A stretch of 25,775 nucleotides of DNA from a virus. The stretch is taken from positions 1 to 25,775 of the IMG/VR virus record IMGVR_UViG_3300042310_000502, one strand, 5' to 3'. Position numbers and translations under genes: made by a program. The notes under the pieces were generated by a model that did not search any database, had not been told where the DNA came from, and saw nothing but the letters and a program-made list of their open reading frames with translations. Shown in pieces: positions 39 to 5,828 of the stretch (position 1 is its first letter; each line of letters opens with the position of its first letter).

Positions 39-329
39 TCAAACGTCACACCGCGCCCAAACAGAGCCGTCAGGGCAGGTCAAAAGATTGCCAACATCTT
101 CTAAATAATGAGAACGAAACTCTACCGCTGCAGCCTCAAAACTGGGGTAATGGCTAAAATCACCAACCCAACCAATAGGATCAAACTCACGATCTTCTAA
201 CGTGGCGTCTGCCATTTCGTCATAATAGTTGAATAGCGTTTCGAATTGTTCTCTGGTAATGCCGCTGTACTGCTGTAAATTTTTGCAAAGTAACCACGCT
301 TGGCCAGCACTCAAAATTTCGATGATCAT
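39..329 (-). CDS. Small acidic phage hypothetical protein (96 aa)
   Basis: The function is unknown. The start ATG (bases 329-327) is preceded on the minus strand by AAGGA about nine bases upstream, a good ribosome site. The protein has an N-terminal part beginning MIIEIL, then a middle rich in Asp, Glu and aromatic residues with the string EFDPIGWVGDFSHYPSFEAA. That pattern (acidic helix, then FDPI, then an aromatic-acidic stretch and 'SFEEA') recurs in small uncharacterised phage proteins as far as I recall, without an assigned role. It is transcribed away from the structural genes, from a strong promoter at 393-421, so it is probably part of an early or middle non-structural block. No membrane segment or signal peptide is visible. 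Confidence 0.75.
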   Translation of the reverse strand: MIIEILSAGQAWLLCKNLQQYSGITREQFETLFNYYDEMADATLEDREFDPIGWVGDFSHYPSFEAAAVEFRSHYLEDVGNLLTCPDGSVWARCDV

Positions 330-421: not shown

Positions 422-428
422 CTGTAAA

Positions 429-482
429 ATTTTACGTGCTGTTTTTTACGTGCAATTTTTTACGTGTGTTATTTTTTACGTA
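429..482. repeat. Four-copy TTTTTTACGTG array upstream of the leftward promoter
   Basis: Four direct copies of a T-tract followed by ACGT are visible: TTTTACGTG at 430-438, TTTTTTACGTG at 442-452 and 456-466, and TTTTTTACGTA at 472-482. The ACGT cores start at 434, 448, 462 and 478, so spacing is 14, 14 and 16 bases. The array is non-coding and begins eight bases beyond the -35 box of the leftward promoter. It could be an operator or activator array, an A-tract UP-like element, or origin iterons; the sequence alone does not decide. Confidence 0.7.
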
Positions 483-483
483 A

Positions 484-766
484 TACCCTAGTTTGGCGTT
501 TTTGCTTCTCTTCTTTACCCTTCTTTTTGGGCTTAGGGTAGTTTGCGGGATGCCTTATGCACTGCGCGTTTTGGGATAGCACTACCCTTACTACCCTTCT
601 TTTGGTTAAAGTAGATATATATTTGTCCCCGGCTCCCCAAAAAGTTGAATAGCATCTGTGGGGTATTTAATGGGGTTTTTACGGGTAGCAAGGGTAGTTT
701 TCCCCCCTTTTTTGCCGATATGTGGTTGTAATTTATAAGTTTTTTTTGTTACCCTTGGGATGGGTA
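484..766. repeat. Cluster of ten TACCC/GGGTA motifs in the divergent control region
   Basis: TACCC occurs at 484-488, 516-520, 583-587, 592-596 and 750-754. Its complement GGGTA occurs at 536-540, 661-665, 683-687, 692-696 and 762-766. Several extend to TACCCTT. Two pairs are 9-bp tandem repeats: ACTACCCTT twice at 581-598, and GGGTAG twice on the opposite orientation at 683-697. Inverted pairs with short spacers occur at 516-540 and 750-766. About 0.6 occurrences would be expected by chance in 283 bases counting both strands at even base composition. The cluster stops just before the packaging genes, so a packaging-start, operator or origin role is plausible. Confidence 0.7.
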
Positions 767-902
767 GTCGGGGGTGGGCGCATACGATTATCTTTTATTG
801 CTATTTACACGCAAAAAGTTTTGTGCTAGGCGCGTTGCCCGCGTCACTGGTGGCCAATTCTCCCCTTGCGTTGGGCATGAGATTGGGTTAGAACAAAACG
901 CA

Positions 903-1169
903 ATGGGGGTTGTGCGTATGCTGGTTAAGCGGCAAATTCTGGTTGGTGAAAAGGGCAGGGCAGGCCAAGACCACCATGCGGCACGGTTGAGCGATGAAGA
1001 GGTTGAGGAAATGCGAACGTTGTACGAGGATGGGCTAGGAACCTACAGCACGCTGGCAAAGCGTTTTGGCGTGGCTAAGAGCACAGTGGCCTATATTTGC
1101 CAATACGCTAGGCGCAACGCCATCCCTCGCACGATCACCGTGGTTGTTAAGCAAGCGGGGCAGGCATGA
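903..1169 (+). CDS. Small helix-turn-helix protein upstream of terminase
   Basis: The C-terminal half has a helix-turn-helix pattern: LSDEEVEEMRTLYEDG, then TLAKRFGVAKSTVAYIC (about residues 50-66 from the ATG at 903), as in resolvase-type and sigma-like HTH domains. Small phage proteins with the same 'LT/SDEEV..R.L..EG...LA..F.VS.STV' layout are common, usually without a proven role; DNA binding is the natural inference. The start is uncertain. A GTG at 774 gives 131 aa, but the extra 43 residues look unlike a conserved domain; ATG codons at 903 (88 aa) and 918 are alternatives, none with a strong ribosome site. Its stop overlaps the TerS start (ATGA, 1166-1169), so the two are translationally coupled. 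It may bind the TACCC array just upstream or assist packaging. Confidence 0.65.
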   Translation: MGVVRMLVKRQILVGEKGRAGQDHHAARLSDEEVEEMRTLYEDGLGTYSTLAKRFGVAKSTVAYICQYARRNAIPRTITVVVKQAGQA

Positions 1170-1693
1170 CAAGCGAACAACGCAAACCCGTGTACTACTC
1201 GCATGAGCTGTTTGATCGTATCTGCCAGCGCATATCAGAGGGCACCAGCCTAACGGCTATCTGCCGTGAGCCTGGAATGCCAACGCCACCCACGGTGCAT
1301 CGTTGGATCAGCAACGATCCCGCGTTGGCTGATTGCTACGTGCAAGCGGTTAAGGCTAGGGCGGAATTGATCTTTGATGAAATTCTTGAGATTACCGATG
1401 ACGCCCGCAACGATTGGATGGAAAAGCAGCTGGAAAACGGCAAAGTGATTGAGGTGCTGAACAAAGAACACGTTCAACGCTCTAAGCTTCGCGTTGACGC
1501 ACGGAAATGGGTGCTAGGATGCATGAACCCCGCGCAGTATGGAAACTTCACAAGGCAAGAGCTAACAGGCCGTGACGGTGCGCCCCTGCACCCCACGGTG
1601 CCAGTTAGCGACGCACAACTAGCCGCCGCGCTTAACGCCTTGGTAAAACCGCCCGCCGCTGAACAGGATGCGGATGTTAGCGACCTCTTTTAG
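1166..1693 (+). CDS. terS: Terminase small subunit
   Basis: This protein should recognise the viral DNA and recruit the large terminase for packaging. The 175-aa sequence has an N-terminal HTH region (about residues 28-51, SLTAICREPGMPTPPTVHRW), typical of the phage small terminase family in which the HTH is followed by a helical oligomerisation core. The core here has the expected helical, charged composition (LIFDEILEITDDARNDW, then RSKLRVDARKW at about 105-115) and the familiar 'NPAQYGNF' string before a variable tail. A GCAGG ribosome site lies just upstream, and the start overlaps the HTH gene by four bases. The last 26 bases overlap the large subunit gene, the usual terS-terL arrangement. 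Recognition rests on motif and position. Confidence 0.88.
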   Translation: MTSEQRKPVYYSHELFDRICQRISEGTSLTAICREPGMPTPPTVHRWISNDPALADCYVQAVKARAELIFDEILEITDDARNDWMEKQLENGKVIEVLNKEHVQRSKLRVDARKWVLGCMNPAQYGNFTRQELTGRDGAPLHPTVPVSDAQLAAALNALVKPPAAEQDADVSDLF

Positions 1694-3266
1694 CCCTGAA
1701 CAAGTCGCGGCATTCACACCCCAACAACGCGCAGAGGCCTTGCGGTTGATCCACTTGCGCGGGGGAATTAAGCCTTGGTATCCATTGCCTGGCCCTCAAA
1801 CCATGGCCTATCAGAGCCAAGCGGATATTATCGGCTTTGGTGGTGCTGCTGGTGGCGGTAAGACCGATTTGATGTGCGGCAAAATCCTTACGCAGCACCA
1901 AGTAGGGATGATCTTAAGGCGCGAGGGAACGCAGCTAACGGGCATTGTGGACCGTCTGACCAGTTTGCTTAAGGGCAGGGATGGTTACAATGGGCAAGAA
2001 AAGATTTGGCGGCTCCCTGGCGGCCAGCAAATTGAGTTTGGATCGGTGCCCAACCCTGGCGATGAAACGAAATACCAAGGCCGCCCGCATGACTTCCTAG
2101 GCTTTGACGAAGCGACCAATTTCTTAGAGGCGACCGTGCGCTTCCTGTTGGGTTGGTTGCGGTCCACTGACCCCAAGCAACGCTGCCAAGCCTTGCTGAC
2201 GTTCAACCCACCAACAACCGCTGAAGGGCGTTGGATCATTCCGTTCTTTGCCCCTTGGCTTGATCCCCAATACCCTAAGCCCGCCGCTCCAGGTGAGGTG
2301 CGCTGGTGCGCGTCTATCAACGGTAAGGATCGCTGGGTGGCCGATAACCGCAGCTTTGTGCTTGATGGTGATGAAATTTGCTATGATTTTGATCCTAAAG
2401 CGTACAAGCCAGAGGATGTTATCCTGCCGCTATCTCGCACGTTCATCCCCTCTCGCGTGTCGGACAACCCCCACCTGTTCGGCACTGGCTACATGCGCAC
2501 GCTGCAGGCCTTGCCTGAACCCTTGCGTTCGCAAATGCTGTATGGTGATTTCCAAGCGGGCATTGAAGACGACCCCTGGCAGGTTATCCCTACCACGTGG
2601 GTGCAGTTGGCGATGGATCGATGGAAGGAACCAGCACGCAAAGCTCCGATGCAGTCCGTAGGATGTGACGTGGCGCGTGGGGGTAAGGACAACACGATCA
2701 TCGCCCGCCTGCATGAGGATAATTGGTTTGATATGCCATTGGTTTACACGGGCGCACAAACCCCTGACGGCCCAGCAATCATGGGGCTAATCATGGCCGC
2801 AACACGCGACAACGCGGTGCAGCATATCGATGTAATAGGGGTGGGGGCATCGCCCTATGACTTTTTGAGCAAAGCACGGCAACCCGTGGTAGGTGTGAAC
2901 GTGAGCGAAGCCGCAGTAGGAACGGATCAATCTGGCCGCCTAAGGTTCAAGAATCAGCGTTCACAGTTGTGGTGGCGCATGCGGGAAGAGTTAGACCCCA
3001 ACAACAACACTGGCCTGACCCTGCCCCCATCCAAAGAGCTACTTGCAGACCTCACTGCCCCTAAATGGGAATTGAAAGGATCGACAATTTACGTGGAAAG
3101 TAGGGAAGAGATTGTCAACCGTATTCGCAGGTCACCAGACTGGGCGACTGCCTACATTCTAGCCCTTATCCGCACGCCTAAAATTCAACATTTAACGGGC
3201 ATGGGCACGGGTGGGCATTCAACGCCACAAGTCAACTATGATCCGTACGCAAGTTTAGATCACTAA
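1668..3266 (+). CDS. terL: Terminase large subunit (packaging ATPase-nuclease)
   Basis: This is the motor that pumps DNA into the prohead and cuts the concatemer. The 532-aa length is typical. A Walker A motif GGAAGGGKT lies at residues 58-66, with the Q (Q51) eight residues upstream that podophage terminases carry. The Walker B motif is FLGFDEAT (D147, catalytic E148). The C-terminal RNase H-like nuclease begins near residue 331 with GCDVARGGKD, where D334 would be the first metal-binding Asp, and a second acidic strand follows at HIDVIGVGASP. The start at 1668 lies inside the terS gene; a second in-frame ATG is at 1674. No truncation or frameshift is seen. The portal follows after one small gene. 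Confidence 0.97.
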   Translation: MRMLATSFSPEQVAAFTPQQRAEALRLIHLRGGIKPWYPLPGPQTMAYQSQADIIGFGGAAGGGKTDLMCGKILTQHQVGMILRREGTQLTGIVDRLTSLLKGRDGYNGQEKIWRLPGGQQIEFGSVPNPGDETKYQGRPHDFLGFDEATNFLEATVRFLLGWLRSTDPKQRCQALLTFNPPTTAEGRWIIPFFAPWLDPQYPKPAAPGEVRWCASINGKDRWVADNRSFVLDGDEICYDFDPKAYKPEDVILPLSRTFIPSRVSDNPHLFGTGYMRTLQALPEPLRSQMLYGDFQAGIEDDPWQVIPTTWVQLAMDRWKEPARKAPMQSVGCDVARGGKDNTIIARLHEDNWFDMPLVYTGAQTPDGPAIMGLIMAATRDNAVQHIDVIGVGASPYDFLSKARQPVVGVNVSEAAVGTDQSGRLRFKNQRSQLWWRMREELDPNNNTGLTLPPSKELLADLTAPKWELKGSTIYVESREEIVNRIRRSPDWATAYILALIRTPKIQHLTGMGTGGHSTPQVNYDPYASLDH

Positions 3267-5327: not shown

Positions 5328-5828
5328 ATGGCGAATCTTACTATACAAGGCGTTGCGGGGCTATATACACCAAGCACCAACAATCTAGTTGGGCTTCTTG
5401 GCGTGGACGGCAAAGAATACCTTATCCCAGTGTCTGCAGCTTTCGCGCCCACACTAGTTGTCGCTGCGCAAACGATCACCACAGCGACCATCAACGGGGG
5501 CACCATCAACAACACCACAATTGGCGCGACAACCCGCAACACCATCGCTGGTACCCAACTATCGGTGACAGGAACTGATATATCTGGTACCCCTGGCAAC
5601 GGTACCGCCAACACAGGTTCGGGGCGTGCGGCTATCGCGGCGGCGGCCACAACCGTCACCGTCACCAACTCACAGGTTGCGGTTGCTGACCACGTCTTAA
5701 TCCAACCCCGTGCGGTGGGCACGCCTACCAAGTGGGCGGTAGTCACTGCAGCAGGCAGCTTCACAGTTACCGTGGACCTTGCACCTGCTGCTACGTGGCC
5801 TTTCGATTTTATTGTCATCAAGAACTAG
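5328..5828 (+). CDS. Putative head decoration or minor virion protein
   Basis: The product is not firmly recognised. The 166-aa protein is rich in Thr, Ala, Val and Asn and is probably all-beta. A first block (residues 1-45) with LGVDGKEYLIPVS is followed by an Asn/Thr-rich segment (ATINGGTINNTTIGATT, about 55-71), a linker style common in phage fibre proteins. The C-terminal domain (about 105-166) is VTVTNSQVAVADHVLIQP then AAGSFTVTV and FDFIVIKN; this C-terminal pattern recurs at the ends of phage decoration and appendage proteins. AGAAAG lies before the ATG. Position between portal and capsid genes supports a capsid-surface role, possibly a head fibre; this is inference. Confidence 0.7.
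   Translation: MANLTIQGVAGLYTPSTNNLVGLLGVDGKEYLIPVSAAFAPTLVVAAQTITTATINGGTINNTTIGATTRNTIAGTQLSVTGTDISGTPGNGTANTGSGRAAIAAAATTVTVTNSQVAVADHVLIQPRAVGTPTKWAVVTAAGSFTVTVDLAPAATWPFDFIVIKN

Follow-up and report, generated by a model that had tools for sequence, protein, structure and literature searches.

What is the role of a dense cluster of short repeats lying just ahead of the packaging genes in a phage genome? The question is raised by positions 484-766 of the stretch analysed here (the window: 25,775 nucleotides, positions 1 to 25,775 of the virus record IMGVR_UViG_3300042310_000502), which belongs to a BPP-1-like phage of the Rauchvirus kind. The original prediction saw in this cluster a multi-copy protein binding region and left three options, namely a packaging recognition site, a late-gene operator or a replication origin. 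The binding region and the last option are supported by our analysis: 484-766 is very probably the core of a replication origin, in which the 9-bp repeat units would be iterons of the phage's own primase-helicase. We read it so because of the repeat array, its dyad symmetry, an AT-rich spacer, the coupling to the primase gene, the covariation of repeat units with the protein and a predicted winged helix, all of which are computed.

The ten TACCC/GGGTA pentamers reported at the outset are all in place (484+, 516+, 536-, 583+, 592+, 661-, 683-, 692-, 750+ and 762-) and make up the densest 283-bp stretch of the window, for an expectation at even composition of 0.54 (279 places x 2 / 1024), in line with the earlier figure of about 0.6. 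Dinucleotide shuffling never reached ten: the maximum per 283 bp was 5 pentamers in 500 shuffles of the whole window and 7 in 2000 shuffles restricted to 330-902. The two tandem pairs in opposite orientation are real and have a 9-bp period (ACTACCCTTACTACCCTT at 581-598 and GGGTAGCAAGGGTAG at 683-697). With one mismatch at most, CTACCCTT is matched at eight sites (515+, 534-, 582+, 591+, 681-, 690-, 749+ and 760-), which fall into mirror partners by reverse-complement symmetry (515+/760-, 534-/749+, 582+/690- and 591+/681-; centres 639.5-645). Since the eight sites share one symmetry centre near 640, the four sub-clusters form a single dyad, and the inverted pairs first described at 516-540 and 750-766 turn out to be its mirrored outer pairs. 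The elements of the cluster are as follows.

484..488, + strand: lone TACCC without mirror partner.
515..541, unstranded: outer left inverted pair, iteron-like (515+ TTACCCTT, 534- TAGGGTAG), mirroring 749-767.
581..598, + strand: left arm, two tandem 9-bp iterons ACTACCCTT ACTACCCTT.
599..680, unstranded: AT-rich spacer between the arms, containing GATATATATTTG; proposed melting element.
661..665, - strand: lone GGGTA within the spacer, without mirror partner.
681..697, - strand: right arm, two tandem 9-bp iterons, inverted (reverse complement CTACCCTTGCTACCCGT).
749..767, unstranded: outer right inverted pair, iteron-like (749+ TTACCCTT, 760- ATGGGTAG).

Conservation of the motif in related phages had been proposed as a check, and its absence from close relatives as a refutation. 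TACCC arrays occur at the same place in loci L048 and L051, the sequence being generally not kept in relatives, and no match to 330-1170 was found by DNA similarity among named phages. What is conserved is the architecture, that is, inverted arrays around an AT-rich spacer, and not the TACCC sequence, so that loss of the motif would have been a misleading test. The units measure 8-10 bp, usually 9 (8 or 10 bp in few loci), and include TTTGCCTCG (BPP-1), TTTGCGACG, TTTGGAACG, TACACCACC, TGGGACGGA, AAGACAGAT, GTTCCTACC and GCGGGTATT. A first autocorrelation run, based on a narrow helix-turn-helix (HTH) pattern, covered 28 of 84 loci and was later superseded by a primase-based set; in 17 of the 21 non-redundant relatives, the autocorrelation of exact 7-mers is highest at 9 bp, with few loci at any other period. 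Upstream of terL, 55 of 208 loci have inverted 9-bp arrays; downstream of it, 0 of 215 do. In the window, the spacer has an AT fraction of 0.62 (599-682) against 0.47 for the window, and the inter-arm stretch is richer in AT than its own locus in all 79 array loci (mean 0.65 vs 0.43), as expected for a melting element. Of note, three loci with VapE-type primases (L017, L024 and L043) carry an additional, third tandem array, which precedes the left arm by 77-88 bp and has the same orientation.

Which protein reads these arrays? Contig L004, 100% identical to the window over their overlap, extends it to the left and encodes a primase-helicase of 792 aa (L004 2500-4878, + strand, outside the window) with AEP, PriCT_2 and VapE-like domains, matching by sequence the VapE-type PriRep1 structure 7pds. 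The gene order on L004 is primase-helicase, small leftward genes, array, HTH gene, terS and terL. When loci were fetched by their primase instead of their terminase, an inverted array was present at most 2.4 kb downstream of the primase in 80 of 117 non-redundant primase-helicases (79 of them credible; L236 looks like chance and was later left out), as compared with 0 of 109 in a control placed inside the primase genes. Across the family, the array lies at a median distance of 58 bp after the primase stop codon, and in many phages lacking both the HTH gene and this TerL it is found a few to ~150 bp away. The units themselves follow the protein, their similarity being correlated with that of the primase C-terminus (rho 0.35, p=0.001, n=45), more strongly so within the BPP-1 type (0.70).

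In this phage group, the array stands directly upstream of HTH-terS-terL, and multi-copy sites are usual for TerS, two features which would suit a pac/cos recognition site bound by TerS. Such a site is nevertheless extremely unlikely: neither TerS (rho 0.02) nor TerL (rho -0.01 to -0.02) covaries with the unit sequence, phages lacking this TerL have arrays next to their primase, and in L022, L035, L156 and L169 the array abuts the primase while other sequence separates it from HTH-terS. Equally improbable is an operator through which the HTH protein (903-1169) would control the late genes or itself. The HTH gene does follow the array in most of the phage group, but the HTH protein does not covary with the units (rho 0.02, p=0.35), and arrays persist in 33 non-redundant loci in which no HTH gene was found. 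The array is moreover kept in 26 of the 31 non-redundant primase loci that have neither an HTH gene nor an A1-type TerL. The arrays track the primase-helicase gene and not the packaging genes. As they follow the primase into phages without this TerL or the HTH gene, and show no covariation with TerS, TerL or HTH protein, the packaging and late-operator options of the original prediction find no support.

The unit sequences also differ between primase classes. TTTGxxxCG-kind units go with BPP-1-type primases (Prim-Pol and D5_N domains), and ACC/GAC-rich units with VapE-type primases, the class of the window. In 35 BPP-1-type primases, every variable column (700) was scanned against each unit base, the unit register being set by eye on CGTTT. 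Residue 832 (BPP-1 numbering) is the top column for both base 3 and base 4, and at base 3 the correspondence is complete, with K or R for G (26/26), M or Q for A (7/7) and D for C (2/2). Its neighbour, residue 833, is the top column for base 2 (D for C, 13/13), while bases 7 and 9 give only lineage-like associations. A tree was then built from which the last 60 residues were excluded. On it, base 3 and the residue 832 class each switch on 8 branches, and these are the same 8 for both; for base 2 (11 changes) and residue 833 (9 changes), 8 branches are common. Given such repeated co-switching on the same branches, the association is not a single inherited one.

Within the VapE-type class, a residue-to-base link is suggestive only. 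An automatic-register mutual-information scan was rejected, its register being inconsistent and its top columns lineage markers, and was replaced by register-free and partial-correlation scans. Among 39 VapE-type primases, the top columns by partial correlation are R780, L763 and R779, all located in the last 30 residues, the part of the protein in which the BPP-1-type columns lie as well. Of 9 primases with V778, that of the window phage among them, 8 have (C/T)TAC units.

The C-terminus could well provide a DNA-reading domain. AlphaFold2 (AF2) models covering the last 140 residues predict, for the window class, a helix (107-119) followed by a hairpin (122-139), i.e., a winged helix with a pLDDT of about 90, and for the BPP-1 class a helix (102-111) followed by a hairpin of lower confidence. 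A fold search with the window-class model returned nothing significant. With the BPP-1-class model, the best PDB match is the RFX1-DNA complex 1dp7 (probability 1.00, E 0.0075). RFX1 uses its wing to read bases. It is a eukaryotic transcription factor, and its likeness to the BPP-1-type C-terminus is limited to the fold; the models place the covarying residues directly behind the recognition helix, in the region of the wing (model positions 118-119 and 126-128), with 832 and 833 as adjacent wing residues.

From these elements, we infer that the primase-helicase binds the array, that the spacer melts, that replication starts bidirectionally and that the site is used in vivo. In such a mechanism, each iteron would be bound by the C-terminal winged helix of one initiator protomer, and the oppositely oriented iteron sets would load the initiator on both flanks of the AT-rich spacer. 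The spacer would then melt, each strand would receive a helicase, and priming would be done by the primase domain attached to it.

Contrary to the earlier statement that no site of this form had been described, P4 crr and the origins of phage-inducible islands (PICIs; PMC6092414) have this form. P4 crr has 8-bp units which, as in the window, follow a 9-bp period (4314, 4323) and face inverted units (4366, 4384); it adjoins the 3' end of the primase-helicase gene (alpha), as the arrays of relatives adjoin theirs, and its TGTTCACAC/TGTTCACC resembles TGTTACCAC of the window class. P4 differs in having crr twice (120 bp per copy) and a remote ori that carries more iterons, for a single array in BPP-1 and in the window contig. 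The P4 ori is far from alpha, as the window array is from its primase. PICI origins share the layout, and in these islands the initiator gene and its site drive autonomous replication (PMC6092414). In SaPI Rep and SCCmec Cch2, the C-termini recognize iterons downstream of the gene (PMC7581432). Comparable in this respect is the D5-type helicase Cch2 with its putative SCCmec origin, where its C-terminal domain binds directly repeated short units (PMC7581432); it has three AAGTG iterons and no fused primase. PICI and SaPI origins differ from the arrays described here, which belong to full-size phages with their own terminase and, in the window phage, to a site 1.8 kb from the initiator gene. The window phage combines structural features of the P4/PICI type: inverted sets of short direct repeats, an AT-rich region between them, and a probable helicase initiator which carries an AEP primase domain and, at its C-terminus, a winged helix predicted by AF2. 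Adjacency of array and initiator gene is loose in it.

The P4 comparison also raises another explanation, in which the primase-helicase iterons serve mainly for transcriptional autoregulation or to control copy number, with the actual origin elsewhere. P4 has two such regions, crr and the distant ori, and both are needed. We consider this very unlikely here, as no second array was found in BPP-1 (42 kb) or in 19 kb around the window array, an AT-rich core is present in all 79 loci, and the functional origin of the satellites has the same layout (PMC6092414).

Several observations weigh against an origin read by the primase-helicase, or against the residue-base link. GC skew follows gene orientation and is uninformative, neither BPP-1 nor the window contig showing an independent sign of an origin in it. 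Under the strict rule, 37 of the 117 primases have no array, and the array of the window phage, ~1.8 kb from the primase stop codon with small leftward genes intervening, is farther away than that of nearly all relatives. In addition to the register being set by eye, the BPP-1-type scan excluded seven array-bearing loci with other units (L156, L204, L214, L072, L178, L062 and L092), and L318 violates the rule at base 4. In the window class, the register-free scan places V778 only 24th among 406 columns, and L286, a phage with V, does not fit.

The site itself is of known design; what is new is its spread to autonomous phages and the residue-base code, neither of which was found in the literature searched, from which most subscription journals were absent. 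It is fairly likely that autonomous temperate tailed phages share the P4/satellite type of origin and that one or two wing residues choose the variable iteron bases. This would assign an origin, and the protein reading it, to a large phage group, among them Bordetella phage BPP-1, which has no origin marked in its record and carries its array at about 26.6-26.7 kb. It would also tie full-size phages to satellites (P4, PICIs) by one origin design, contrary to a published statement that no other known replicon has it. If so, origin and initiator would have switched together repeatedly in evolution, leading to many mutually exclusive origin types. Should the code be confirmed experimentally, the protein sequence could reveal which origin is recognized, and the sharing or exclusion of origins between phage and satellite within one cell would become predictable and testable.

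The surroundings of the array comprise a second motif and the following genes.

39..329, - strand: leftward small gene, last of the small leftward block between primase-helicase and array.
428..482, + strand: second motif TTTTACGTR, four copies, spacing 14, 14 and 16, on the outer flank.
903..1169, + strand: small HTH gene, best Pfam match HTH_7 (resolvase-type).
1166..1693, + strand: terS, PF20901 Sf6_terminase (context).
1668..3266, + strand: terL, BPP-1-like (context).

On the right side, one inverted relative of TTTTACGTR is present (CTTTTTGCGTG, 806-817). Sites resembling TTTT[AG]C[AG] are over-represented across the 79 array loci, within 200-300 bp on either side of the arrays (e.g., CGTAAAA in 28 loci vs 5.2 expected and TGCAAAA in 37 vs 10), in both primase classes and also in phages without an HTH gene. 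As a guess, the primase might use this second motif for priming or for its loading.

Left of the array, several of the small leftward genes are preceded by short leaders that are nearly identical and contain an AAAGGA-type ribosome site (L002:5065-5099 and 5412-5446; L004 about 5391-5420 and 5646-5670). A small HTH gene ahead of terS is common throughout the phage group; in NC_005357.1, bbp27 (L082:7126-7362) is annotated as an endonuclease, and the HTH domain alone is detectable in it. Finally, Limnohabitans phage DC33 (PQ492659.1, L083; 39 kb genome) has a terL of this phage group, 61% identical, and its taxonomy line, Inoviridae, looks misfiled.
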